This document shows positions 43,003 through 58,118 of a stretch of 64,000 bases of DNA, piece by piece. This DNA is from Protaetiibacter sp. SSC-01 (lineage in GTDB: Bacteria > Actinomycetota > Actinomycetes > Actinomycetales > Microbacteriaceae). Below the pieces are notes generated by a model. It saw only the letters and a list, made by a program, of their open reading frames with translations. It was not told where the DNA came from and did no database searches. The position numbers and the translations under genes are program-made. The first letter of the stretch is position 1. Each line of letters begins with the position of its first letter. The DNA lies in assembly GCF_014483895.1 (NCBI RefSeq), contig NZ_CP059987.1, positions 2,356,001 through 2,420,000 of the forward strand, written 5' to 3'.

Positions 43003-44477
43003 CGGCTCACGATTCCTCTCAGCCACGTCGTGGCGTCGTCCAAGTCACGGAAGGCCTCGAGCTTGCGCTCCTGGTCGGATCGCGCTGCCTCGACGGCCGC
43101 GGGATCGGCGGACAGTTTCAGGACCGCCACCTCCGCGTCGCGCAGCAACCGCCGCGGTGCCCGCGGGACGAGCAGAGCGTCCGAGACGAGGGTGCGCTGG
43201 GCCCCCACATCCGCCGAGATGACCACGGCGCCCGCGGCATGACCCTCCATCGCGGTCAACGCTAGCCCCTCATTCTGGGAGGTCACGATGAGGCAGTCCG
43301 CCTCCGCGAAGGTGTGGTCTACCGGCACATCGGAACCCCGCAGCTCGATCACGTCCCCGAGGCCGTAGCGCGCGACGAGCGAGCGGATGCGGGGCTCGGC
43401 GGGGCCGGACCCGTGAAGCACCGCGCGCAGCCGCGGCATCCGCCCCGACCGCCGGAGCCGCCGCACGAGCTCGATGAAGAGCTCCGGCCGTTTCTGCTTC
43501 ACGAGCCTGCCGACGAAGACGAGCGTCTGCGTGTCCGCGAACGGTCGACGCCGGTGTGCTTCGACCTCCCCCGCGACGCCGAGAAGCGTCGCGACGTGGA
43601 TGCGATCTCGCGCCATGCCGGACAGCTCGGCGAGCTGCTCCGCGAGCGGCGGGGAGATCACGTGGTGGGCGGTGATCTGCGCGTCATGCTGGGCGGAGAG
43701 GAGCGGGAAGCCTCCGTCCTCCCACTCGACGAGGTGCAGCGAGTCGATGACGGGCACGTCGGGACGCAGGGCGGCGAGGCGCGGGAGCCAGCGGTAGACG
43801 GCACGGGCGTGGTGGATGAGCACGCCCCGTACGTCGAACGCGCCGAGCAGGGCGTCGAGGGCGCGATCCGCGTCGGCGGACGCGAGGTCGTCGAGCGGCA
43901 GGTGCAGGGCGCCGAGGGCGGCGGCCTGCGCAGCGAGCGGGTGCGCCGAGCGCTGATCCGTCACCAGGATGGGGACGAGCCCCGCCTCGGCGACGATGCG
44001 TGCGCTCGCGAGCGCCCAGCGCTCAGCACCCCCGACCTCGAGCCAGTACATGCCGACGATGACGGCCGGGCGACCGGCGCCGGGGGCGACGGGGTCGAGC
44101 CGCTCCGTGGCAACGCGCGCGCGGAAGGCCGGCGCGGCGGCACGCATCATGGCGCTGAGCCGCCGCTGGGCGATCTCGTCGGCGAGCACGGGGAAGCGGT
44201 CGTTGAGGGCCCTCCAGGAGCGTCGCAGCGCCGACGGCGCGGGCGGAACGGGCGGCTCCGGGAGCGCGAGCTCGACGCGGGCGGCCGGGCCGCCGCCCAG
44301 GGCGGACCGCGCGCGGACGCGGTCCCCGCCGAGCCCGAGCTCCAGTTCGGCGGCGGGGTGCAGCAGCGCCTCGCGCGAGAGGCGGCCGAGGGCGAGCATC
44401 CGCTCCCCGGGCTCGAGGCCGTCGAGCGTCGCCCGCGCGGGATCGTCGAGGGCGAGGAGCTCGGGCACCTCGATCAT
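42987..44477 (-). CDS. GT4-family glycosyltransferase
   Basis: A protein of 496 aa. The N-terminal 95 residues form an unusual non-catalytic extension (acidic, Leu-rich, starting MIEVPELLALDDPARATLDG). The GT-B fold follows with VGMYWLEVGGAERWALASAR, a central VFVGRLVKQKRPELFIELVR and the nucleotide-sugar EX7E motif SQNEGLALTAMEGHAAGAVV. The ATG overlaps the GlfT2-like stop (ATGA), so translation is coupled. The sugar transferred cannot be read from sequence. Its relation to the neighbouring galactofuranosyltransferases suggests later elongation or branching of the same chain. Confidence 0.88.
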   Translation of the reverse strand: MIEVPELLALDDPARATLDGLEPGERMLALGRLSREALLHPAAELELGLGGDRVRARSALGGGPAARVELALPEPPVPPAPSALRRSWRALNDRFPVLADEIAQRRLSAMMRAAAPAFRARVATERLDPVAPGAGRPAVIVGMYWLEVGGAERWALASARIVAEAGLVPILVTDQRSAHPLAAQAAALGALHLPLDDLASADADRALDALLGAFDVRGVLIHHARAVYRWLPRLAALRPDVPVIDSLHLVEWEDGGFPLLSAQHDAQITAHHVISPPLAEQLAELSGMARDRIHVATLLGVAGEVEAHRRRPFADTQTLVFVGRLVKQKRPELFIELVRRLRRSGRMPRLRAVLHGSGPAEPRIRSLVARYGLGDVIELRGSDVPVDHTFAEADCLIVTSQNEGLALTAMEGHAAGAVVISADVGAQRTLVSDALLVPRAPRRLLRDAEVAVLKLSADPAAVEAARSDQERKLEAFRDLDDATTWLRGIVSRWRIR

Positions 44478-46306
44478 GCATCCCTCGCCGTGTCGGCGAA
44501 GATCCGCTCCCACGTCGCCCGCGAGGCGACACCGAAGCGGTCCGCGCGGAAGTCGGCGGCGAGAGCGTCCCAGCGTGAGCGGTAGGCGCGGTTGAGTCGG
44601 ATGCTGCGCCGCACAGCCGCGCGGAACGCGCTGCGGTCGCGCGTGCGCACGACCCAGGCGCGCCCGTCGGCGGTGCGGGTCTGGATGACGTCCTGCGCCG
44701 CGATGTGCCACCAGCGCGCCGTGCCGTCCGTCACCCGCACGGGGCGTCCGCTCCCGGGCCGTGCGATCAGGTGGCGCAGCAGCTGCCCGCCGAATCGCGC
44801 GACGCGCCCGAACCGACCGGGCTCCGCACCCCCGATCGCGATTTCGCGCGCGGGCGCGAGCTCGTCCTCCGTCCGGACCCGCGTCTCCGGATGCTCGGAC
44901 GCGAGCGCCCGGATGTCGCGCAGGCGCGTGCCGAGCTCGGCGACGAGCGCATCCGGTCCCGCGAGCACGGCCTCGAAGGCGAGGTGCCGAAGGGCGACGG
45001 CGTAGTAGTCCATCGAGAGCAGGTAGCGCAGGTCGATCGCCAGGTTGTGCAGCCACAGGCTGCCACCGCGACGACGACGCGCGTGCAGGAGCGCCGTCAC
45101 GAGCCTGTTGCGAGCGTGGTAGAACGCCTGCCAGTCGGTCGTGTCGTCCTTGTTCGCCCATGCGACATGCCAGGCGGCCACGCCCGGCAGCGAGACGACG
45201 GATGCGCCGTCGGCCTGGGCGCGCAGGCCGAACTCGGCATCATCCCACTTGATGAAGAACGGCATCGAGTAGCCGATGCGCTCGACGAGGTCGACCGGGA
45301 TGAGGCACATCCACCAGCCCGAGTAGTCGGGGCGGTACACGCGGTGCATCCAGGGCGTCTCGGCGAGGCCGCTCTCGGCGAGGTCGTGCCGCAGCGGCGT
45401 GAGCGATCGCCACACGAAGGAGCGCTGCTCGATGCCCTCGGCGAATGAGTGCACGACGGTCGGGTGTGCGATGTCGAGCATGTGGCCGCCGACGACCGTC
45501 GGCTCGCGGCAGTAGGAGGCGAAGGCGACCGCGCGCAGGATCGACTCGGGGTCGAGGCGGATGTCGTCGTCGAGCAGGATGACGAAGTCGCTGCGGCCGG
45601 CGACAAGCGTCTCGTGCATGCCGCGCGAGAAGCCGCCCGACCCGCCGAGGTTGGCCTGCTCGATGAGCTGCAGCATGTCGCCGAGTGCGGCGGCGACCTC
45701 GGGGAAGCCGTCGGCGGCTCGCACGTGGTCGGTGCCCTGGTCGACGACGTACACGGCGTCGACGACGCCGCGCAGAGCGGGCTCGTCGGCGAGAGCGCGG
45801 AGCACGTCGAGGCAGTAGGGCACGCGGTTGAGCGTGGTGATCGCCAGGCTCGCCGTCGCGTCATGGCGCGCGGGCACTGCCTCGGTCGACCATGCGATGC
45901 GGCTCGCGCGGACAGGCACGTCGCCCGCCTCGAGCTCGACCCAACACCATCCGCCGTCTGGGAAGCCGGTCAGATCGACGCGGTGCGTCCAGGCGCCCGC
46001 GGGCGCGTCGGACTCCACGATCGTGCGCGGCGCCCCCGTGCCGTCCGTCGCGACGACACGGACGCGGGCGGGCGCGCCGAGCTCGACGCCGAGGTCGACC
46101 GTCTCGACGACCGTCGCGGCGCGCCACTGCCCCGCCGGGAGCGCCGCGGAGTACCCGCTCAGCGCGAGCCGGGCACGGGGCGCGAGCTCGAGGGCGTCGC
46201 GCGACACGACGCGCACCCCTTCCGGAAGGTGCGGACGGTCGAAGACGAGGGCGAGGTCCGACTCCCGCTCGGGGAACCGGACCCGTGCGATCGCGGTCGG
46301 CGTCAC
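44474..46306 (-). CDS. Galactofuranosyltransferase, GlfT2-like
   Basis: A protein of 610 aa. The N-terminal beta-rich domain (about 1-150) is typical of GlfT2. The GT2 domain has ITTLNRVPYCLDVLRAL, GGSGGFSRGMHETL, the metal site LLDDDIR (Asp246-248), the catalytic WDDAEFG (364-370) and His380 in WHVAWANKDD, followed by HARNRLVTALLHARRRR. All these match mycobacterial GlfT2, which builds linear galactofuranan from UDP-galactofuranose. GTG at 46306 starts 11 bp after the glf stop. Linkage specificity in this organism, which shows no mycolate genes here, is unknown. Confidence 0.92.
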   Translation of the reverse strand: MTPTAIARVRFPERESDLALVFDRPHLPEGVRVVSRDALELAPRARLALSGYSAALPAGQWRAATVVETVDLGVELGAPARVRVVATDGTGAPRTIVESDAPAGAWTHRVDLTGFPDGGWCWVELEAGDVPVRASRIAWSTEAVPARHDATASLAITTLNRVPYCLDVLRALADEPALRGVVDAVYVVDQGTDHVRAADGFPEVAAALGDMLQLIEQANLGGSGGFSRGMHETLVAGRSDFVILLDDDIRLDPESILRAVAFASYCREPTVVGGHMLDIAHPTVVHSFAEGIEQRSFVWRSLTPLRHDLAESGLAETPWMHRVYRPDYSGWWMCLIPVDLVERIGYSMPFFIKWDDAEFGLRAQADGASVVSLPGVAAWHVAWANKDDTTDWQAFYHARNRLVTALLHARRRRGGSLWLHNLAIDLRYLLSMDYYAVALRHLAFEAVLAGPDALVAELGTRLRDIRALASEHPETRVRTEDELAPAREIAIGGAEPGRFGRVARFGGQLLRHLIARPGSGRPVRVTDGTARWWHIAAQDVIQTRTADGRAWVVRTRDRSAFRAAVRRSIRLNRAYRSRWDALAADFRADRFGVASRATWERIFADTARDA

Positions 46307-46317
46307 GGGCGCGCGCC

Positions 46318-48374
<2,057 letters not shown>

Positions 48375-49385: not shown

Positions 49386-49420
49386 AGTCTACGAGGCGCC
49401 CATCCATGCCCGGTTACAGT
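49386..49420. promoter_or_regulatory. Divergent promoters between GlfT1-like and GtrA genes
   Basis: Minus strand TAGACT (49386-49391) precedes the GlfT1-like gene. Plus strand TACAGT (49415-49420) precedes gtrA. Both leave leaders of 30 nt or more, unlike the leaderless genes nearby. Confidence 0.45.
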
Positions 49421-49456
49421 GGAGGGTCAGCCAGACGAGACGAAGAGGCGGGGACC

Positions 49457-49921
49457 GTGCGGCACGTGAAGGCGATCCTCGGCATCCTACGGACGCGCGA
49501 GTTCTGGACCTTCTTCGGCGGCTCCGCCGCGGGCCTCGCCGTCGATCTGGTCGGCTTCCAACTGCTCGTGTGGGCGGGTCTGCCCCCCTGGCTCGCCAAC
49601 GGCACGAGCTCGGTCGTATCGATCACCGTCGTGTACCTGCTCGTGACGCGCTACACCTTCGGCGTCGGAACGCGGCTCTCGACCTACGTGCTCTTCGTCG
49701 GCTGGTACCTGACGTCGATCGTCGTCTTCTCGAGCCTCATCCAGCTCGCGGTGTCGCTCACCGACTGGGTGCCGTTCGCGTGGAAGCTCGTGACGGTCCC
49801 GATCTCGTTCTCGCTCAACTACCTCTTCAGCCGGTTCCTGTTCCTGCCGAAGCAGAAGCACGACGCCGAGCTGCTCGAGGAGGAGACCCCCGACGACGGC
49901 CCGGAGGGTCAGCCGGCGTAG
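49457..49921 (+). CDS. GtrA-family membrane protein
   Basis: A protein of 154 aa with four membrane helices. FFGGSAAGLAVDLVGFQLLV and WLANGTSSVVSITVVYLLVT form the first pair; FSLNYLFSRFLFLPKQK ends the last helix with the family's basic signature. GtrA proteins are thought to flip polyprenyl-phosphate-linked sugars made by a GtrB-type transferase. A GtrB-like protein is encoded in the convergent operon (52,293-53,291), so the pair may cooperate. GTG at 49457 follows AGGCGGGG. The 3' end overlaps the sugar-isomerase gene on the other strand by 13 bp. The tail is acidic. Confidence 0.9.
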   Translation: MRHVKAILGILRTREFWTFFGGSAAGLAVDLVGFQLLVWAGLPPWLANGTSSVVSITVVYLLVTRYTFGVGTRLSTYVLFVGWYLTSIVVFSSLIQLAVSLTDWVPFAWKLVTVPISFSLNYLFSRFLFLPKQKHDAELLEEETPDDGPEGQPA

Positions 49922-50727
49922 TAGCGCCTCGCGAGCTCGACGGCTGCTGCGGCGCGCGCCGGCCCTTCGCCCGCGTCGCCCGGGCGCATCTCGATCGACA
50001 CCGCGCCCGTGTAGCCGATCGCCGCGAGCGCGGACGCCGCGGATGCGTGATCGACCTCCGTGTCCTCGAGCGCGCCGAGGTAGGGCGCGCTCGCGTGGAA
50101 ATGCCGCAGAAGGCCGCCCGCCGCGCGCACCGACGCTCCGACATCGTCGCCGGCGAGCGTCATCCCGGCGGCGTCGAGGTGCAGGCCGAAGCCGGGGTGG
50201 TCGACGCGCGCGACGAGCTCGATCCCCTGCTGGGCGTTCACGACGTAGTTGCAGTCATACGCCGTCGGGTTCGGCTCGATGCAGAAGACCGTGCCGTGAT
50301 CGACGGCGACGCGGCCGAGCCCACGGAAGAACTCCTCCGCGATCGCATGCGCCTCCTGGAGGTCCATTCCCTCAGGCACGCGACGGTTCTTCGGCGAGCC
50401 GAACACCATCCGCTCGGCGCCCAGCTGCCCGGCGAGCTCGATGAAGCCCTCGAGATATCGGGCCGTCTGCTCGCGCACCTGCGGGCTGCCGAAGACCTCC
50501 AGGTCGAGGCGCCCGAAGAGCATCGACTGGAAGGCGCTCACGCGGATGCCGTGGTCGGCCCAGAACCCGAGGTACTCCGCGCGTTCTGTCTCGCTCGTCG
50601 CGAGCGGGTCGGTGAAGGTCTTGGTGGGGGCGATCTCGACCTCGGTCACGTCGGCTGCCTGCAGGGCGGCGGCGACGTCGGCCTCCTCCTCGGCGGGCCA
50701 CGCGATGTTGCTGATCGCGAGCCTCAC
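49909..50727 (-). CDS. Sugar phosphate isomerase/epimerase-like TIM barrel
   Basis: A 272-aa protein of the AP-endonuclease-2/xylose-isomerase-like superfamily. Strand motifs include MRLAISNIAWPAEEEADVAA, SAFQSMLFGRLDLEVFG, ERMVFGSPKNRRVPEG, FCIEPNPTAYDCNYVVN (metal-ligand Glu), FGLHLDAAGMTL (Asp), LLRHFHASAPYLG (His) and AVSIEMRPG (Glu), the usual four-ligand metal site. It would isomerise or epimerise a keto/aldo sugar. GTG start overlaps the SDR stop (GTGA). It is the last gene of a five-gene coupled operon. The real substrate is unknown. Confidence 0.88.
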   Translation of the reverse strand: MRLAISNIAWPAEEEADVAAALQAADVTEVEIAPTKTFTDPLATSETERAEYLGFWADHGIRVSAFQSMLFGRLDLEVFGSPQVREQTARYLEGFIELAGQLGAERMVFGSPKNRRVPEGMDLQEAHAIAEEFFRGLGRVAVDHGTVFCIEPNPTAYDCNYVVNAQQGIELVARVDHPGFGLHLDAAGMTLAGDDVGASVRAAGGLLRHFHASAPYLGALEDTEVDHASAASALAAIGYTGAVSIEMRPGDAGEGPARAAAAVELARRYYAG

Positions 50728-51494
50728 CGGGCGCGCTCCGCTGCGACGAACTCGACGAGGTCGGCGAGCGTCTGCTCGCGCGAGAAGGTGTAGCCGTCGA
50801 CCCCGCCGAACGCATCCGCGTGCACCGATCGCACGTCGTAGCTGCCGGGCTTCACGCCCTCGGGCTCATTGTCGAAGTCGATGCCGAAGGCGACGCGCGC
50901 GATCTCGTCCGTGCGCAGCGGCGGGCTCGAGAGGTTGACGAGGCGCAGCCCGGCGTCATGGGCGGTGCCGAGGTCGTGCCACAGGCGCGCGACGTTGTAG
51001 TACTGGAAGCTCCCCGCGCGGTGGATGCGGTCGACGTTGTTGTCGTGCAGGAGGTCGTAGATGACGTTCTTCTTGAGGCCCGGTCCGAAGAGCCCCGGCA
51101 GTCGCACGATGAGCGCCTCCGGGTGGTGCTCACGCACGAAGGATTCGAGCTGCAGGCGGTGCAGACCGTAGGGGTGCAGACCCTCGGTCGGGATGACCGT
51201 CGTCTCGTCGACACCGACCGGGTTCCCATAGACGTCGACCGTCGAGACGAGCACGAAGCGGTCGGCGCGCACACCGGCGACGAGCTCCTCGAGGTCGCGG
51301 ATGTGGGCGAGGTCGGACTCCGGGTCCTGGTTGATGCGCCACTTCTCCGCACGTGCGGCGGCGAACACGACGAGTCCGAACTCGCGCCCGATCGCCTCGC
51401 GCGAATTCGCGGAGCCGTAGTGCTCGTCGAAGTCGCCAGCCGCGGCGAGGTTGCTCCCGACGAACCCCGATGCTCCGAACAGTGCTGACGTCAT
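50724..51494 (-). CDS. NAD-dependent epimerase/dehydratase-like SDR with Lys-to-Arg change
   Basis: A protein of 256 aa. Rossmann motif FGASGFVGSNL (6-16), serine region LVSTVDVYGNP and Tyr109-x3-Arg113 in HPYGLHRLQLE. In nearly all extended SDRs the last residue is Lys, so catalysis may be altered or lost. The C-terminal part (IVRLPGLFGPGLKKNVIYDL and FQYYNVARLWHDLG) resembles sugar-nucleotide reductases. It is short for an epimerase (usually over 300 aa). The ATG overlaps the upstream GT2 stop (ATGA) and has AAGGAGG before it. It is the fourth gene of the coupled operon. Confidence 0.85.
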   Translation of the reverse strand: MTSALFGASGFVGSNLAAAGDFDEHYGSANSREAIGREFGLVVFAAARAEKWRINQDPESDLAHIRDLEELVAGVRADRFVLVSTVDVYGNPVGVDETTVIPTEGLHPYGLHRLQLESFVREHHPEALIVRLPGLFGPGLKKNVIYDLLHDNNVDRIHRAGSFQYYNVARLWHDLGTAHDAGLRLVNLSSPPLRTDEIARVAFGIDFDNEPEGVKPGSYDVRSVHADAFGGVDGYTFSREQTLADLVEFVAAERAR

Positions 51495-52306
51495 GCGCGT
51501 CGATCCTCCTTCAGCCGGTACTTCCCGGCGGCGGCGCGGAACAGCACGCCGAGCACGTGGATGTTGCCCTTGACGGGGCTGATCTTGGTGGGCGTCTTGC
51601 CCTTCGGGTAGGCGCGCGTCACCGGCGTCTCCGTCGTGCGGAAGCCCGGCCGGCGCGACGACTCGATCGCGAGGTGATAGTGCAGCTCGTAGGTCTGGAA
51701 CACGTCGCGGAACACGCCGATCTGAGGCGACGCGAGCAGTCGCGCACTGTAGGCACGGAATCCGTTCGTCGTATCGGTGTGCCGACGGCCCGCCGCGAGG
51801 CTGATGAGCGGCGCATGCAGCACCTTGAGACCGATGAGCCTCGAGAGGGGGGTGTTGATGGCCTTGCCGCCGGGGATGAAGCGGGAGCCCTGGACGTGGT
51901 CGTAGCCCTCGTCGAGCAGGCGGAGGAAGTCCGGGATCGCCGCGACGTCGTCCTTGCCATTGCCGTCGACCACCACGACCCCGGCGTAGCCCTCGCGCAG
52001 CGCCCACGCGAAGGCCATCCGCATCTGCGCGCTGAGCTTGCCCGGTCCCGTCTTCGTGAGGAGTGCGCGTACGCCGTTCGCCCCGAGGTACTCGAGGTCG
52101 AGAGAGCCGTCGGTGCTGCCGCCGTCGGCGACGACGGTGTCGGCGTCGTAGCCGAGCTCGTTCATGCGGGCGAGCTGCTTCCGCACCTTCTCGCCCTCGT
52201 TGATGACGAAGACGACGACGCAGTAGCGGTGCGCCTTCGGGGCGAGCACGTCGATGCGCGACGCCGGCACCTGCCAGCCGGCGTCGTCGAGGTCAGTTGC
52301 TGACAT
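51491..52306 (-). CDS. GT2-family glycosyltransferase (dolichyl/polyprenyl-phosphate type)
   Basis: A soluble GT2 protein of 271 aa. HRYCVVVFVINEGEKVRKQL opens the domain, TVVADGGSTDGSLD carries the nucleotide-binding aspartate, VVVVDGNGKDDVAAIPDFL occupies the DXD position (DGNGKDD), and DHVQGSRFIPGGKAINTPL is typical of polyprenyl-phosphate sugar synthases. DTTNGFRAYSARLL follows. No membrane span is present. Overlaps of 14 bp upstream and 4 bp downstream show translational coupling. It is probably the catalytically active transferase of the operon, because its neighbour has lost the DXD motif. Confidence 0.87.
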   Translation of the reverse strand: MSATDLDDAGWQVPASRIDVLAPKAHRYCVVVFVINEGEKVRKQLARMNELGYDADTVVADGGSTDGSLDLEYLGANGVRALLTKTGPGKLSAQMRMAFAWALREGYAGVVVVDGNGKDDVAAIPDFLRLLDEGYDHVQGSRFIPGGKAINTPLSRLIGLKVLHAPLISLAAGRRHTDTTNGFRAYSARLLASPQIGVFRDVFQTYELHYHLAIESSRRPGFRTTETPVTRAYPKGKTPTKISPVKGNIHVLGVLFRAAAGKYRLKEDRRA

Positions 52307-53291
52307 TGCGGCGCTCGAGGTCGGCGATGAGCGTCTCGCTCTCGAGTTCCTCCATCACGAAGTAGCTGGGCTCGCGTCGCGTCTCGGTGAGGATCCGCCC
52401 GAGGTACTCGGCTTGCACCGCGATGATGACGGAGATCACGAAGAACATGAGGGAGAGCTGGAGCGACGTTGTCGTCCAGCCCTCCGCGACGCGGTCGGCG
52501 ACGAGGCGCACGACGATGACGTACACGGCGTAGAGCAGGTTGAAGAGGCCCCCGAGCACGCCCACGATGGTGACGACGCGCAGCGGGTGGGTCGAGTAGC
52601 TCGACACCATCTCGATGGCCTCCATGTAGCCCGCCTTGAAGGTGCGGCGTCGCGAGGGCCCCTCGATCGGCGTGTACGAGTACTCGGTGAGGCGGAAGCC
52701 GATGAAGCGGATGAGATGACGCAGGTAGCGGTGGCTGCGCTGCGACGCCGTGAGCGAGTTGACCGCGCGGCGTGTGAGCCCCGTGAGGTAGGTCGCCTGC
52801 AGCGGGATGTCGACCCCGAGGTAGCGGCGGTTGTACCAGTAAAAGAGACGCCGCCCCATCCGACCGATGAAGTTGCTGTCGATCGGCAGGGTGCTGACGC
52901 CCTGGATGATGTCGTTGCCCTCCCGGCCGAGCTTCACGATCTCGGGGATCGTCTCGACCGGGTCGTGGGCGGGCGACATGACGACGACGTAGTCGCCGAC
53001 CGCCGACTCGATGCCGGCGAAGATCGCCGTGTCGATCGTCGTGGGCCGCGAGAGGCGGAGGATGCGGATGCAGGGCACGGTCGCGAGCAGCTCGCGCAGC
53101 TGCACGAGCTCGCCCGGCTCGGCGCCGTTGTCGACGAGGATCACCTCGTAGTTGGCGTAGCGCGTGCTGAGCTCGGCGTGAACGCGGCGCACGAAGTCGC
53201 CCCCGCCGCGCAGGGTGGGGTCGAGCACCGCGACTACCGAGACGAAGACGTCGGAGAGCACCGGAGTCGACGTGGCAGGTGAATCAGCCAT
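52293..53291 (-). CDS. GtrB-like GT2 protein with degenerate DXD
   Basis: A protein of 332 aa. A GT2 domain (about 14-225) is followed by two membrane helices (about 238-262 and 275-298), the GtrB/ArnC topology. VSVVAVLDPTLRGGGDFVRR and YEVILVDNGAEPGELVQL are normal. At the expected DADLQDP motif the sequence is MSPAHDP (105-111), so the first two metal-binding residues are Ser and Pro-Ala instead of Asp. RMGRRLFYWYNRRYLG follows as in polyprenyl-phosphate transferases. It may be inactive or use a different mechanism. Start overlaps the oxidoreductase stop by 8 bp. Confidence 0.85.
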   Translation of the reverse strand: MADSPATSTPVLSDVFVSVVAVLDPTLRGGGDFVRRVHAELSTRYANYEVILVDNGAEPGELVQLRELLATVPCIRILRLSRPTTIDTAIFAGIESAVGDYVVVMSPAHDPVETIPEIVKLGREGNDIIQGVSTLPIDSNFIGRMGRRLFYWYNRRYLGVDIPLQATYLTGLTRRAVNSLTASQRSHRYLRHLIRFIGFRLTEYSYTPIEGPSRRRTFKAGYMEAIEMVSSYSTHPLRVVTIVGVLGGLFNLLYAVYVIVVRLVADRVAEGWTTTSLQLSLMFFVISVIIAVQAEYLGRILTETRREPSYFVMEELESETLIADLERRNVSN

Positions 53292-54396
53292 ACAGAATGG
53301 TCAGCTCCTGAAGTACGTCATAGATGTTGTCTAGTTTGCCACCCATGATGCAGGTGTAGTTGCGGAGGCCGTGATCCGGCCGGAAGAGGATGGGGCGGGA
53401 GTCGTCGGACGCGCTCTTGGGCAGCACCGTCTTGACCTCCCAGATCGAGTCCTTCTGCTCCATGCCGACGAAGCCCGGGAGGAACCGCAGAAGGTCGGCC
53501 CGCATCGCCTGGTAGCGCGACACGGCGGGCAGCGAGGCGAGCACCTCGTGAGGGTCGAGCTCGCGCGGCAGCTCGTCGTCGCGCCAACGGTGGTGCGGTG
53601 TGTAGCGCACGTGGCTCAGGGTGTGCAGTCCGCGGCTAGGGAACGGCATGACGGAGAAGAACGGGCCGTCCATCACGGTGACCGCGGTCTTGCGCAACTC
53701 GTCCGGCAGCTCGACGAGGGCCATCTCGGTGATCTCGTGCTGGAGCGGCACCGTGGGGATGCCGGAGCGTCGGTGAAGGGGGTTGAGCTCCGAGTAGGTG
53801 GCGCTCACGACGGCGTGAGCACGTCGGGTTCCGCTCTGAGCGTGCACATCGATGTCGGTCTCACCCGCCTGCTCGATCGACTCCACCCGGTCGCCGTAGC
53901 GCACCTCGATGCCACCCGCGACCTCGATCCGGTCGAGCAGGACGCGACGCAGCACGCGCGAGTCGAAGGCCGGCTCGGTGACATGGTAGACCGCCTCGAC
54001 CGCGAGGGGGTTGAAGAGCTCGGCGACCTCGGACTCGGCCGGCTCGAGGAAGGCGCCGACGCGCGCACAGAACAGCTCGAACTGCCGGGCGTTGACCTTC
54101 GAGAGGGTGCGGGCGATCGCGTAGTAGTGCTCGAAGTCGTCGACGACGGCATCGCCGAACTCGCGCACGAACACCGGGAAGTTCACCTGCGAGCGGTACG
54201 CCGTCAGGATGCTCCGCGGGTAGTGATATCCCCCGTGGACGCGCGCCTGGTTGACGTAGCTCGCGCGATCCATCGCGGCGTCCTCTTTCTCGAAGACGAC
54301 GACGGAGTTGAAGCCGAGGCTCTCGCGCAGGTGGAGTGCGATGCGCAGTCCGTAGAAGCCGGCGCCGATCACGACTGCGTCGGTCGGCCGCTGCAT
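53284..54396 (-). CDS. FAD-dependent oxidoreductase (DAO-like) of a glycan operon
   Basis: A protein of 370 aa. An N-terminal Rossmann fold with AVVIGAGFYGLRIALHLRES (GxGxxG at 11-16) and Glu36 in VVVFEKE binds FAD. The unusual block NQARVHGGYHYPRS (49-62) would line the flavin site. The C-terminal GKLDNIYDVLQELT closes the domain. It is related to D-amino-acid-oxidase-type flavoproteins and distantly to UDP-galactopyranose mutase, yet its operon partners are sugar enzymes, so the substrate may be a sugar nucleotide or lipid-linked sugar (inference). TAGTCT six bases before the ATG gives a leaderless start of the five-gene operon. Confidence 0.88.
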   Translation of the reverse strand: MQRPTDAVVIGAGFYGLRIALHLRESLGFNSVVVFEKEDAAMDRASYVNQARVHGGYHYPRSILTAYRSQVNFPVFVREFGDAVVDDFEHYYAIARTLSKVNARQFELFCARVGAFLEPAESEVAELFNPLAVEAVYHVTEPAFDSRVLRRVLLDRIEVAGGIEVRYGDRVESIEQAGETDIDVHAQSGTRRAHAVVSATYSELNPLHRRSGIPTVPLQHEITEMALVELPDELRKTAVTVMDGPFFSVMPFPSRGLHTLSHVRYTPHHRWRDDELPRELDPHEVLASLPAVSRYQAMRADLLRFLPGFVGMEQKDSIWEVKTVLPKSASDDSRPILFRPDHGLRNYTCIMGGKLDNIYDVLQELTILYG

Positions 54397-54441: not shown

Positions 54442-56448
54442 GTGCTGCTCGACTGGTCCGCGGTGGCCCCGCCGTTCGTCGTCGCACTCGTGTGCGTCCT
54501 GCTGCCCGGGGGGCTCGTGGCGACGCTGTTGCGCGTGCGCGGGACGGCCGCGATCGCCATCGCGGGGCCGATCTCGGTCGCGATCATCGGGGTGACCGGC
54601 GTCCTCGCCGACCTCGTGGGCGCGCCGTTCGGCGCCGGCGCTGTCGCGGTCTGCACCGCCCTCGCCGCCGCGGCCGCGTTCGTGCTGCGCCGCTTCACGC
54701 CGCTTGTGCGGCGGGCGACCGACCGCTGGGCCCGTCCGTCCCTCGCGCTCGTCGGCGGCCTCGTCGTGGGCTCCGGCGTCATCGGGCTCACGGCTCTGGC
54801 GTGGCTGCCGTCCCTGCCGATCGATCAGAGCTACGACGGCGTCTTCCACGCGAACGCGATCGCGTCGATCCTCGACGGCGGCTCCGCCTCCTCGTTCCGC
54901 CTCTACGCGATCACGCACCCGAGCGACGGCGTCGAGTTCTATCCGGCCGGGTGGCATTCGCTCGCGGCTCTCTCCGCCCAGCTCACGGGGGCACCGGTGC
55001 CGTTCGCGTCGATCGCGACGTGGTGGGCCGTCGCCTCCGCGGTATGGCTGCCGGGGATCGCCTGGCTGAGCGAGCTGCTCGTACGCGGCCCTCGGATGCT
55101 CGTGCTGCCTGCTGCCGCCGTGGCGGGATCCGCCTTCACGATATTCCCCGCGCTCCTGCTCGACTGGGGTGTCATCTATCCCACCTTTCTCGCCTACTCG
55201 CTCCTGCCAGCGGGGGTCGCGCTGACGGTCGCCGCCTTCGGCGCCACCCGCAGCGAGGCGGCACCGCGGATCCCGCTCGCGTGGGCCGCCCTCATCGTGT
55301 GGTTCGCCGGCGCGTGCTTCGCGCATCCGCGCTCGCTGCCCACGGGCCTCGTCGTGCTCGCGCCGTTCCTGGTCTGGCGCGTCGCGCGCTGGGTCGCGCC
55401 GCGCCTGCGCGACCCAGCCAGGCGCCGACGGTGGCTCACGTGGCTCGCCGCGGGGGCGACCGCGCTCGTGCTCGCGGGCGTCGGCGCGGTGGTCTTCGCC
55501 TTCCGCTACTTCGACGTGGCGAACCGCCCGATCTCGGACCGTCTCAACGGAGGCCCCGCCCTCGCGACGATGACCCCCGGCGAGGCCGTCTGGTCGGTGC
55601 TCGCGCAGTCGACCCCCACCTCGACATGGGCACTCCCCGCCTCCCTCGTCCTCGCCGCGCTCGTGCTGAGCGGTGTCGTGCTCGCGATCGTCCGCCCCTC
55701 GCTGCGGTGGGTCGCCGTCGCCTACGCGCTCGTCGCGCTGCTGTTCTGCCTCGCCGCATCCTCCGATTCGGACATCGCCAAGCTGGCCACGGCGCTCTGG
55801 TACAAGGACAAGTTCCGCCTGATCACCGCGCTCCCGTTGCTCGGTGTCCCTCTCGTCGCACTCGCTCTCGTCGGCCTGCGCGGCCTCATCGTGCGCCTCA
55901 CGCGTCGCCGGCTCCCCCGCATCGCCCGCAACGTGCTCGCAGCGCTCGTGGCGGGCGCGCTCCTCGTGCTCACGGTCGAGTCGCCCGCGCTCGCCGCGAT
56001 GCGCGGGACGCTCGCGGCGTCGTTCGACGTCGGCGACGAGAAGGATGGGCGCCTCATCGACCGCGACGACGTCGCGCTCCTCACGCGTCTCCCCGACCTC
56101 GTGCCCGAAGGGGAGCTCGTCGTCGGCAACCCGTGGAACGGATCCGTGCTCACCTGGTCGGTCGGCCGGCGCGAGGCGCTCTTCCCCCACCTCGTCGGCA
56201 TGTGGGACCCTGACCGTCTGCTCGTCGCCGCCGGGCTGTCGCAGGCGGCCGAGAACCCGATCGTGTGCGACGCCCTCGAGCGCCTCGGCGTCGGCTACGC
56301 GTACTACTCCGAGGGCCTCCTGTGGGACGGGGATCCGCAGGCGCAGGCGTTCCCGGGCGTCGACGCGGCGCACGGCGACCCGCGCGTCATGGAGCTCGTG
56401 GCCCGCGAAGGGGATGCCGAGCTGTACCGCATCACCGCCTGCGGATGA
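54442..56448 (+). CDS. DUF6541-type polytopic membrane protein
   Basis: A protein of 668 aa with about fourteen spans. The first large loop has LPIDQSYDGVFHANAIASIL (acidic, GT-C-like) and GVEFYPAGWHSLAALSAQLT, both characteristic of DUF6541 proteins. Later loops carry FAHPRSLPTGLVVLAPFLVW and KLATALWYKDKFRLITALPL. The C-terminus is a soluble extracytoplasmic domain ending with ELYRITACG. It starts at a leaderless GTG. DUF6541 members are found in wall-glycan clusters and may be glycosyltransferases, but the reaction is unproven. It precedes the ABC exporter by 82 bp. Confidence 0.83.
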   Translation: MLLDWSAVAPPFVVALVCVLLPGGLVATLLRVRGTAAIAIAGPISVAIIGVTGVLADLVGAPFGAGAVAVCTALAAAAAFVLRRFTPLVRRATDRWARPSLALVGGLVVGSGVIGLTALAWLPSLPIDQSYDGVFHANAIASILDGGSASSFRLYAITHPSDGVEFYPAGWHSLAALSAQLTGAPVPFASIATWWAVASAVWLPGIAWLSELLVRGPRMLVLPAAAVAGSAFTIFPALLLDWGVIYPTFLAYSLLPAGVALTVAAFGATRSEAAPRIPLAWAALIVWFAGACFAHPRSLPTGLVVLAPFLVWRVARWVAPRLRDPARRRRWLTWLAAGATALVLAGVGAVVFAFRYFDVANRPISDRLNGGPALATMTPGEAVWSVLAQSTPTSTWALPASLVLAALVLSGVVLAIVRPSLRWVAVAYALVALLFCLAASSDSDIAKLATALWYKDKFRLITALPLLGVPLVALALVGLRGLIVRLTRRRLPRIARNVLAALVAGALLVLTVESPALAAMRGTLAASFDVGDEKDGRLIDRDDVALLTRLPDLVPEGELVVGNPWNGSVLTWSVGRREALFPHLVGMWDPDRLLVAAGLSQAAENPIVCDALERLGVGYAYYSEGLLWDGDPQAQAFPGVDAAHGDPRVMELVAREGDAELYRITACG

Positions 56449-56530: not shown

Positions 56531-57394
56531 GTGACAACTGATGCGTCGGTCGGCGGTTTCGTGCGCCCTGGCGATAGCGCCGGGCTCATCGACGTCTTCC
56601 GTCGCCGCTATCTGCTGAGCCTTCTCATCCGCAAGGAGGTGCAGGTCCGCTACCGCGGATCGGTGCTCGGCTGGCTGTGGTCGTACGTGAAGCCCACCGC
56701 GCAGTTCATCGTCTTCTTCCTCGCGCTCGGCGTCTTCCTCCGCCTCAACGCGAGCATGGACGTCTACCCGATCTACCTCTTCAGCGGCCTGATCGCCGTG
56801 AACTTCTTCACGGAGGCGTTCTCGAACGGCACGAAGTCGATCGTCGACAACGGCCCGCTGATCAAGAAGATCTACCTGCCACGCGAGATGTTCCCCGTCG
56901 CGTCGACGATCGTGGCGTTCATCAACTTCCTCCCGCAGCTGCTCGTGACCGTCGTCGTCGCACTCTTCGTCGGGTGGCACCCCGAGCCGCTCCAGCTCCT
57001 CGGCGTGCTCATCGGCATCCTCATCATCGCCGTGCTCGCGACCGGCCTCGGGATGCTGTTCGGCGCCATCAACGTGTCGTTCCGCGACTCGCAGAACTTC
57101 GTCGAGCTCATCGCGCTCGTCGTGACGTGGGCATCACCCGTGCTCTACCCGTGGACCACCGTGCGCGACGCGTTCCCCGACTGGCTCGTGCAGGTCTACC
57201 TCATGAACCCCGTCACGGTCGCGGTCGAGCTCTTCCATGCGGGCCTGTGGTTCCCGACCACGCCCGGCACCTTCGAGCTGCCGCCTGACCTCTACCTGCG
57301 CGCCGGAGTCGGCGTGCTCATCGCGGTCGCGGTGCTGCTCCTCGGCCAGCTCGTCTTCCGTCGTTTGGAGGGTCGTTTTGCCCAAGACCTCTGA
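56531..57394 (+). CDS. ABC-2 type polysaccharide exporter permease (Wzm/TagG-like)
   Basis: A protein of 287 aa with six membrane helices. The N-terminal cytoplasmic helix has RRYLLSLLIRKEVQVRYRGS and GWLWSYVKPTAQFIVFF, the classic TagG/Wzm signature. IDNGPLIKKIYLPREMFPVAS is close to the coupling helix (here VDNGPLIKKIYLPREMFPV). The C-terminal NPVTVAVELFHAGLW completes the fold. It moves an undecaprenyl-linked polymer across the membrane with the ATPase encoded next. GAGG precedes the GTG start. The 3' end overlaps the ATPase gene by 17 bp. Confidence 0.95.
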   Translation: MTTDASVGGFVRPGDSAGLIDVFRRRYLLSLLIRKEVQVRYRGSVLGWLWSYVKPTAQFIVFFLALGVFLRLNASMDVYPIYLFSGLIAVNFFTEAFSNGTKSIVDNGPLIKKIYLPREMFPVASTIVAFINFLPQLLVTVVVALFVGWHPEPLQLLGVLIGILIIAVLATGLGMLFGAINVSFRDSQNFVELIALVVTWASPVLYPWTTVRDAFPDWLVQVYLMNPVTVAVELFHAGLWFPTTPGTFELPPDLYLRAGVGVLIAVAVLLLGQLVFRRLEGRFAQDL

Positions 57395-58118
57395 CGCGGA
57401 GGCGCGCATCATCGTCAAGGACGTCAGCAAGCGCTTCGTCCTGCGCCACACGCACTCCTTCAAGGAGACCTTCGTCGCACTCGTGCGCCGGAAGAGGCTC
57501 GCGACGACCTTCGACGCACTGCACGACGTCTCGGTGACCATCCGCGAGGGCGAGTCCGTCGCTCTGTTCGGGTTCAACGGCTCCGGCAAGTCGACGCTGC
57601 TCAAGCTCATCTCAGGGGTCCTTCGACCGGACGGCGGCGAGCTGCTCACGCGCGGTCGAGTCGCGGGTCTCATCGAGGTCGGTGCAGGCTTCCACCCTGA
57701 CCTGAGCGGTCGCGAGAACATCTACCTCAACGCGGCCATCCTCGGCATGTCCAAGAAGGAGATCGACGAGCGCTACGACGAGATCGTCGAGTTCAGCGAG
57801 ATCGCGGACTTCATCGACACCGAGGTCAAGCACTACTCCTCGGGCATGTTCGTGCGCCTCGCCTTCGCGGTCGCGATCCACACGACCGTCGACATCCTGC
57901 TGGTCGACGAGATCCTCGCGGTCGGCGACGAGCCGTTCCAGCGCAAGTGTCTCGACAAGATCCGCGAGCTGCAGAGCCAGGGCAAGACGATGGTCGTCGT
58001 GAGCCACGCGCTCGACACGGTCGCCGACCTGTGCCCACGCGGTGTGCTGCTCCGGAAGGGCCGCGTGGTCTTCGACGGCCCCTCGCACGAGGCGGTCGCG
58101 ATGCTGAGGGCGAAGTAG
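57378..58118 (+). CDS. ABC exporter ATPase (Wzt/TagH-like)
   Basis: An ATPase of 246 aa: Walker A GFNGSGKS (65-72), Q-loop region GLIEVGAGFHPDLSGRENIY, signature YSSGM (153-157) in place of LSGGQ, Walker B ILLVDE (about 173-178) and switch His in VVVSHALD. The SSGM signature and HPDLSGRENI are typical of polysaccharide exporters. The carbohydrate-binding C-terminal domain of Wzt is absent, so substrate recognition must lie elsewhere. It starts at TTG 57378 with GGAGGG five bases upstream, inside the permease gene. Residue 18 onward KRFVLRHTHSFKETF is standard. Confidence 0.95.
   Translation: MPKTSDAEARIIVKDVSKRFVLRHTHSFKETFVALVRRKRLATTFDALHDVSVTIREGESVALFGFNGSGKSTLLKLISGVLRPDGGELLTRGRVAGLIEVGAGFHPDLSGRENIYLNAAILGMSKKEIDERYDEIVEFSEIADFIDTEVKHYSSGMFVRLAFAVAIHTTVDILLVDEILAVGDEPFQRKCLDKIRELQSQGKTMVVVSHALDTVADLCPRGVLLRKGRVVFDGPSHEAVAMLRAK

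Follow-up and report, generated by a model that had tools for sequence, protein, structure and literature searches.

Several described systems share features with the locus considered here, an operon of five genes in a 64,000-nucleotide stretch of Protaetiibacter sp. SSC-01 DNA (contig NZ_CP059987.1, positions 2,356,001 to 2,420,000 of the forward strand; genome of 2,958,807 bases), which we call the window. In mycobacteria, DprE1 and DprE2, a flavin adenine dinucleotide (FAD) enzyme and a short-chain dehydrogenase/reductase (SDR), convert a lipid-linked sugar by way of a 2-keto form, their product being arabinose that decorates the galactan. Ketose 3-epimerases remove the C3 proton beside a C2 ketone. 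Systems of the gtr type add a side branch by means of a flippase, a polyprenyl phosphosugar synthetase and a glycosyltransferase. Such a set, its flippase being a predicted one, has been described for gmlABC of Klebsiella pneumoniae O2 (PMC12797948), while YcjQ, YcjR and YcjS of Escherichia coli combine two sugar dehydrogenases and an epimerase/isomerase acting on 3-keto-glucosides (PMC11543891). Finally, genes located behind gnd have been hypothesised to modify the O162 antigen of E. coli, in which a branch of 4-deoxy-D-arabino-hexose makes the difference from O101 (PMC13168486, with reference to Liu et al. 2020).

The operon encodes a flavoprotein of the DAO fold (DAO), two glycosyltransferases of family 2 (GT2a and GT2b), an SDR and a xylose-isomerase-like TIM barrel (TIM). 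We describe this gene set, its conservation, its folds and conserved residues and its placement in O101/O162-type loci of E. coli, and for the window organism we infer the reactions, which sugar is made, on what carrier and for what acceptor. The five genes form a portable cassette which recurs in very distant bacteria. We propose, with confidence that stands about midway between belief and disbelief, that it is a side-branch cassette yielding polyprenyl-phosphate 4-deoxy-D-arabino-hexose, or a close relative, by the route set out below. What is new is that the cassette is defined in several phyla, that its motifs are shown to hold throughout the families, and that three enzymes are put forward as a testable route to a 4-deoxyhexose. 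A first-pass annotation of the same DNA had suggested synthesis and lipid-linked delivery of an uncommon sugar through an oxidised intermediate, which was right in outline; the set does, however, occur elsewhere and has had some mention before.

Like DprE1/DprE2, the operon places an FAD enzyme and an SDR, presumably acting on a lipid-linked sugar, in cells that probably decorate a galactan; the mycobacterial pair differs in its flavoprotein family, in lacking a TIM barrel and in making arabinose. DAO matches Pfam PF01266 (E 9.2e-21) and gave no match at E 0.01 to FAD_binding_4, the domain of the VAO/FAD_binding_4 oxidases to which DprE1 belongs, and membership in the DprE1/DprE2 system was rejected on these grounds. 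YcjQ, YcjR and YcjS belong to a cluster for carbohydrate import and metabolism; both oxidoreductases are of the nicotinamide adenine dinucleotide (NAD) type, and there is no flavoprotein. The gmlABC system adds ordinary galactose with three genes and has no DAO, TIM, SDR or second GT2. The small flippase of gtr- and gml-type systems has a counterpart in the GtrA gene of the window, and the combination of GtrA or SMR with a GT-C-like protein found around the cassette corresponds to the gml-type branching layout (PMC12797948).

A gene set that travels together

All five open reading frames are intact on the minus strand, in the order DAO-GT2a-GT2b-SDR-TIM, with successive overlaps of 8, 14, 4 and 4 base pairs (bp), and a GtrA gene converges on the end of the operon and overlaps TIM by 13 bp; the first-pass annotation was accurate on the gene order, the four overlaps within the operon and the converging GtrA gene. 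By eye, a TAGTCT box lies about 8-13 bases before the ATG of DAO, with no clear Shine-Dalgarno sequence, and a leaderless start is plausible.

Genome contigs were scanned with an alignment of DAO. This gave at least 587 relatives, of which the best 80 were kept; by record titles, these come from actinobacteria, Saccharibacteria, planctomycetes, verrucomicrobia, cyanobacteria, proteobacteria, myxobacteria and others. With seven plasmids and three short loci from the family of the window organism (Microbacteriaceae) they make up 90 loci, all chosen by DAO. Partners were counted in the 52 loci where DAO is flanked on each side by 7 kb or more, using bit limits of 400 (DAO), 190 (GT2a), 140 (GT2b), 270 (SDR) and 200 (TIM). 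Residue counts used the same limits apart from 220 for GT2b, and gene order was surveyed in all 90 loci with a DAO limit of 300.

GT2a was present in 51 of the 52 well-flanked loci, SDR in 50, TIM in 48 and GT2b in 46, the last number being a lower bound, since a reading frame that fits two families was assigned to one and fusions occur (Cereibacter, Psychrobacter). A gene for GtrA or SMR was found in 35 of these loci (25 with SMR and 10 with GtrA, none having the two together), and 28 loci contained a GT-C-like protein, a count that is probably low because the six seeds used recovered few of each other's matches. The conserved co-travel that had been put forward as a check on the novelty of the operon was therefore observed, and the anatomy of the cassette, together with the GtrA/SMR and GT-C-like counts, supports the suggestion of an oxidised intermediate and lipid-linked delivery. 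Over all 90 loci, DAO is accompanied by GT2a in 85, SDR in 79, GT2b in 74 and TIM in 73, and by GT2a alone in three, some loci being cut short. The survey gave 23 arrangements, several of them from loci cut short: GT2a-DAO-SDR-TIM-GT2b is the commonest (28/90), followed by the order of the window (15/90), SDR-TIM-DAO-GT2a-GT2b (8/90) and 20 others, so that gene order is shuffled while the set stays. Three Akkermansiaceae loci (L078, L079 and L083) have DAO, GT2a and SDR with no TIM shown, and three further loci (L080, L085 and L090) have DAO and GT2a with neither SDR nor TIM shown; such variants could reveal what DAO and GT2a do alone.

Distances between the proteins point in the same direction. 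In the 65 loci with all five genes, the distance matrices correlated for every pair (r 0.75-0.94), values not attained for any pair in 1000 permutations, although the loci are not independent (close relatives, such as Pseudomonas, are included) and shared host descent alone would also raise r. The highest correlations were those of DAO with GT2a (0.94) and of SDR with TIM (0.93). Co-occurrence in the 52 loci and correlated distances in the 65 bear out the earlier reading of the five genes as one functional unit.

Among 150 genomes of the family, DAO (E≤1e-15), GT2b (1e-40) and TIM (1e-25) were found in the same four, and SDR (1e-15) in those four and two more. In the two additional genomes the SDR relative (45% and 43% identical) lies beside an IspD-type cytidylyltransferase gene (L102:7701-9244 and L103:7876-10156); no DAO or TIM was found in these regions of 17-18 kb, one of which (L102) contains a generic GT2. 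The pair of genes possibly represents a separate pathway linked to cytidine diphosphate (CDP).

The set also occurs on plasmids. DAO and SDR each match 12 of 72,556 plasmid records, and the 12 are identical. In all seven of those inspected SDR and TIM lie within a few kb of DAO, and six have GT2b. On a Mesorhizobium plasmid these genes lie among insertion sequences and TIM is reversed. A 10.8-kb Psychrobacter plasmid (L006 1-10782), typed as non-mobilizable by PLSDB, carries the cassette, an SMR gene, a gene for a multi-span membrane protein, mobC and a gene for a relaxase. The annotation of this plasmid shows neither a nucleotidyltransferase nor a kinase next to the cassette, and the pathway therefore probably starts from a housekeeping sugar. 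A viral origin was considered and rejected, as a single-protein scan of viral contigs found no relative; one partial match occurred in a record from a phage collection.

Conserved residues and folds

The predicted model of DAO (pLDDT 91.4) gave structural matches of the DAO fold. In profile searches its best match in the PDB is L-alpha-glycerophosphate oxidase (4x9m, E 1.3e-8), an enzyme that oxidises a secondary alcohol. The NQARVHGGYHYPRS block, which had been recommended as a tag for finding relatives, serves that purpose well: N49, Q50, A51, R52, H54, G56, H58, Y59, P60 and R61 are each invariant in the 90 rows scoring at least 400 bits.

TIM matches PF01261 (AP_endonuc_2, E 9.6e-22), and its predicted model has a pLDDT of 97. 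E151, D185 and E246 are conserved in 75/75 rows and H211 in 74/75, and these residues align with the conserved Glu, Asp, His and Glu of D-tagatose 3-epimerase (4pgl), the metal and acid/base residues of ketose 3-epimerases. Among the 50 structural matches listed from the PDB, the first is a putative sugar isomerase and most are D-psicose, D-tagatose or L-ribulose 3-epimerases. TIM thus shares with the D-tagatose and D-psicose enzymes both the fold and the residue set; it differs from them in being 15-21% identical among those 50 matches and in missing the curated NCBIfam cut-offs, the best scores being 49.2 bits against 300 for IolO and 37.3 against 300 for D-psicose 3-epimerase. Its profile also matches 3-keto-D-glucoside 4-epimerase (6wn6). 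As judged from alignment and model, TIM resembles enzymes that take a proton from C3 beside a C2 ketone.

The SDR matches PF01370 (E 1.8e-8) and keeps an intact GxxGxxG motif, with G7, G10 and G13 in 78/78 rows. S84, Y109 and R113 are found in 80/80 rows, so that an arginine stands at the usual lysine position (YxxxR).

GT2a matches Pfam Glycos_transf_2 and resembles the PgfS (E 2.7e-30) and ArnC models of NCBIfam, in both cases below their cut-offs; hydropathy indicates two transmembrane (TM) helices. Of 88 rows, no more than 8 keep a DxD motif at the expected place, and these include a GT2 from outside the cassette, yet the protein is present in 51 of the 52 well-flanked copies. GT2b has no TM helix by hydropathy and scores 20.7 bits in Pfam, slightly under the cut-off of 23.3. 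It matches the NCBIfam model of AglJ over residues 29-259 (E 3.9e-17) and a dolichyl-phosphate hexose transferase model of archaeal type, both below cut-off, and D114, G115, N116, K118 and D119 are each present in 71/71 rows. On the Psychrobacter plasmid GT2a and GT2b share one reading frame, of which the record annotates the GT2b part only. In Cereibacter, GT2b (L007:10588-13146) has a long C-terminal extension, hydrophobic by eye, that matches the GT-C-like profile, a fusion which hints that GT2b may feed GT-C directly.

The first-pass annotation had noted changed catalytic motifs in two members of the operon. These changes are real, and they are no oddity of this operon: YxxxR in SDR (80/80), DGNxKD in GT2b (71/71) and the scarcity of DxD in GT2a (at most 8/88) are family-wide, which also rules out decay of the catalytic motifs.

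The 4-deoxy sugar of enterobacteria and the proposed route

Searched at the DNA level, 7 of 5,426 E. coli genomes proved to have the cassette, and all seven regions were inspected. In five it lies behind gnd at a locus of the O101/O162 type, the type being assigned by locus. These five are exactly the genomes whose wzm-wzt genes are at least 99% identical to those of NCTC10973; the 309 genomes with 90-99% identical wzm-wzt are without a near-identical cassette. In three of the five an IS4 element between gnd and the cassette disrupts the start of the flavoprotein gene, and O101 is described as having a transposon insertion at the site behind gnd (PMC13168486). The sixth genome has the cassette again behind gnd, in a different ABC-transporter locus, and the seventh copy, which is more divergent, lies on plasmid pCUPF09A (L095:11887-18746) near insertion sequences and resistance genes. 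The flavoprotein was also found in 9 of 392 genomes of the family of Phytobacter, a Phytobacter genome among them. Four of these regions were inspected: the cassette is behind gnd in three, and wzm and wzt are shown in two of these (L113 and L115); the G337 contig stops shortly after gnd, and at L116 no match to gnd is seen.

The O162 genes behind gnd resemble the window in that counterparts of the five proteins are encoded side by side, along with a small transporter and a membrane protein of several spans, and in that the polymer is exported by an ABC system. They differ in order (DAO-GT2a-SDR-TIM-SMR-GT2b-membrane protein), in that SMR replaces GtrA, in a membrane protein that is not DUF6541 (it has no Pfam match) and in the genes for the backbone. 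Between the window and an E. coli copy (L092) the identities are 46% for DAO, 33% for GT2a, 47% for GT2b, 44% for SDR and 31% for TIM, and the conserved residues checked in TIM, SDR, DAO and GT2b are common to both, except for N181 of GT2b, which is Gln in E. coli.

This sugar is found in O antigens of E. coli O162, Franconibacter and Citrobacter, the last by title. The side chain of Franconibacter pulveris O1 consists of two 4-deoxy-D-arabino-hexose residues, and PMC11231755 gives their synthesis as unclear and the locus sequence as unavailable; Citrobacter braakii is named as a further source by a title in the reference list of PMC5530964. The O89, O101 and O162 loci are treated in PMC4732683 and PMC6128206. 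No paper on the biosynthesis of this sugar was found, by sugar or by gene set, in a limited literature collection. The earlier view that no known pathway has exactly this set is not supported, as the E. coli genes have already been suggested as the likely source of the O162 branch (PMC13168486). Because the E. coli cassette is tied to that branch by a published hypothesis, the likely product is a lipid-linked 4-deoxyhexose or a close relative, and the cassette turns the question of how 4-deoxy-D-arabino-hexose is made into named enzymes for assay.

By sugar nomenclature 4-deoxy-D-arabino-hexose is 4-deoxy-D-altrose, which has no O-4 and, compared with glucose, the opposite configuration at both C2 and C3. 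In the route that we propose, GT2b would transfer a hexose from some common nucleotide sugar to polyprenyl phosphate, and GT2a, which has no catalytic aspartates but keeps its membrane helices, would hold or anchor the lipid-linked sugar. The flavoprotein would then oxidise a ring hydroxyl, most likely O-2. A ketone at C2 makes the C3 proton acidic and O-4 a beta leaving group, and TIM could take this proton in the manner of a ketose 3-epimerase and expel O-4. The elimination would give a 2,3-dicarbonyl, which SDR would reduce, resetting C2 and C3. An oxidase, a barrel and a reductase would suffice, since elimination and reduction would account for both the lost O-4 and the inversion of C2 and C3. 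GtrA would flip the polyprenyl-phosphate sugar, and a GT-C protein, in the window perhaps the DUF6541 neighbour, would attach it to the polymer. That this is an on-carrier route to 4-deoxyhexoses, moving horizontally throughout bacteria, with C2 oxidation by the flavoprotein on a lipid held by the dead GT2, elimination by a ketose-3-epimerase fold to a 2,3-dicarbonyl and reduction by a YxxxR SDR, is a tentative idea and on the whole unlikely; if true, it would explain in one account the C2/C3 inversion relative to glucose and the missing O-4. By record titles, one probable rare-sugar module is shared by actinobacteria, proteobacteria, planctomycetes, verrucomicrobia, cyanobacteria and Saccharibacteria. 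Loss of O-4 through a C6 aldehyde was discarded, as by our reasoning it fails to explain the inversion at C2 and C3, and a xylulofuranose idea led nowhere.

A number of observations weigh against a 4-deoxyhexose made in this way. A 2,3-dicarbonyl needs two reductions and a single SDR is present, and if TIM acted simply as a 3-epimerase, with no deoxygenation, its residues would be just the same. Of the five proteins, TIM has the lowest identity to its E. coli relative. The window TIM has no match to the inosose dehydratase IolE (TIGR04379) up to E 0.01, and the E. coli relative matches that model weakly (17.2 bits against 290, E 0.003). The fold matches of DAO are chiefly amine oxidases and its best single-sequence match is dimethylglycine dehydrogenase (E 0.0026); these searches and the profile search thus point to different substrate atoms for DAO. 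TIM was not found in 4 of the 52 loci nor GT2b in 6 (an upper figure, given the fusions), and 12 showed no GtrA, SMR or GT-C-like gene. We know of no glycan structure from the window organism. Wzm-like permeases occur in just 3 of 54 long loci, and in three family relatives (L099, L012 and L101) no relatives of GlfT2, Glf, DUF6541 or Wzm were found in a region of about 20 kb that surrounds the cassette. A link to ABC export and galactan was on these counts rejected as a general rule and, being rare or missing at other loci, is special to the window and the Enterobacteriaceae. The O89 reference strain, described as rough, also has ten polysaccharide genes behind gnd, which may include the cassette (PMC6128206 for the genes).

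How the same proteins might work otherwise depends first on the carrier. DAO, TIM and SDR may act on a nucleotide sugar, with the GT2 proteins merely transferring the finished product, be it the 4-deoxy sugar or another. Most known deoxysugar pathways use nucleotide sugars, and the residue set of GT2b is complete and conserved; yet DAO diverges in parallel with GT2a, a membrane protein, which is its most frequent partner and in three loci the only one seen, in a sample chosen by DAO and partly cut short. We regard this as a real possibility, although one falling short of an even chance. The product is a separate matter. If C2 (or C3) were oxidised, the neighbouring carbon epimerised by TIM and the ketone reduced, an altrose-, gulose- or allose-type branch with O-4 kept would result, in effect the logic of ycjQRS on a lipid carrier. 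The prevalence of true 3-epimerases among the listed structural matches of TIM and its profile match to 3-keto-D-glucoside 4-epimerase speak for this outcome, as do the higher divergence of TIM over the 65 loci (mean identity 0.43, against 0.51 for DAO and 0.50 for SDR) and the ycj cluster, in which an epimerase/isomerase is coupled with two sugar dehydrogenases (PMC11543891). Set against this, all TIM residues checked are identical in the window and E. coli, and the sole cassette tied to a known structure, by the published O162 hypothesis, goes with a 4-deoxy sugar. We consider a product that keeps O-4 unlikely.

Far less probable is a role for TIM and SDR in forming a polyol or a ketose unit instead of a ring sugar. 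The SDR relatives beside IspD-type genes in two family genomes would fit such a role, whereas GT2b together with GtrA or SMR points to a polyprenyl-phosphate monosaccharide, and the annotation of the regions from seven E. coli genomes and seven plasmids, as far as displayed, includes no cytidylyltransferase, no dedicated search having been made in the cassette loci. Each family in the operon is common by itself, but a chance neighbourhood without joint function is refuted by co-occurrence in loci, plasmids and family genomes and by the distance correlations; we rejected it on the co-occurrence counts and the permutation test, and its probability is close to nil. The reading that we prefer remains the side-branch cassette for a 4-deoxyhexose.

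Neighbouring genes in the window

The positions of the cassette and its neighbours are given in Table 1. The GtrA gene is also convergent behind TIM in two of the three family relatives (L099 and L012), none being seen in L101. The DUF6541 gene, whose start codon is our choice, is divergent from DAO at a distance of 45 bp, and judging from this position the protein is a candidate for the transferase to the polymer. The GlfT2-like and mutase genes probably serve a galactan backbone. Because the neighbours include these genes and the Wzm/Wzt-type genes, the acceptor in the window organism is probably an ABC-exported galactan.

Table 1 Features of the window discussed in the text.
Feature	Position	Strand	Length	Description and proposed role
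GlfT2-like galactofuranosyltransferase and UDP-galactopyranose mutase	44477..47634	-		GlfT2_domain3, Glft2_N, GLF
GtrA-like membrane protein	49406..49921	+		PF04138, E 4.7e-10; proposed flippase of the lipid-linked sugar
TIM	49909..50727	-	272 aa	GTG start; xylose-isomerase-like barrel with ketose 3-epimerase residues; proposed keto-sugar dehydratase or epimerase
SDR	50724..51494	-	256 aa	Extended SDR (Epimerase type), YxxxR replacing YxxxK; proposed keto reductase
GT2b	51491..52306	-	271 aa	Soluble GT2 of AglJ/dolichyl-phosphate-hexose-transferase type, DGNxKD motif; proposed polyprenyl-phosphate sugar synthase
GT2a	52293..53291	-	332 aa	ArnC/PgfS-like GT2, two C-terminal TM helices, no DxD; proposed lipid-carrier or anchor subunit
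DAO	53284..54396	-	370 aa	FAD-dependent oxidoreductase, DAO fold; proposed sugar-hydroxyl oxidase
DUF6541 protein	54442..56448	+	668 aa	PF20176, E 3.8e-139; about 11 TM helices by hydropathy; candidate GT-C transferase
Wzm/Wzt-type ABC exporter genes	56531..58118	+		ABC2_membrane, ABC_tran

Between positions 44477 and 58118 the genes for GlfT2, UDP-galactopyranose mutase, GtrA and Wzm/Wzt encircle the cassette, an arrangement similar to that of the galactan genes of mycobacteria.

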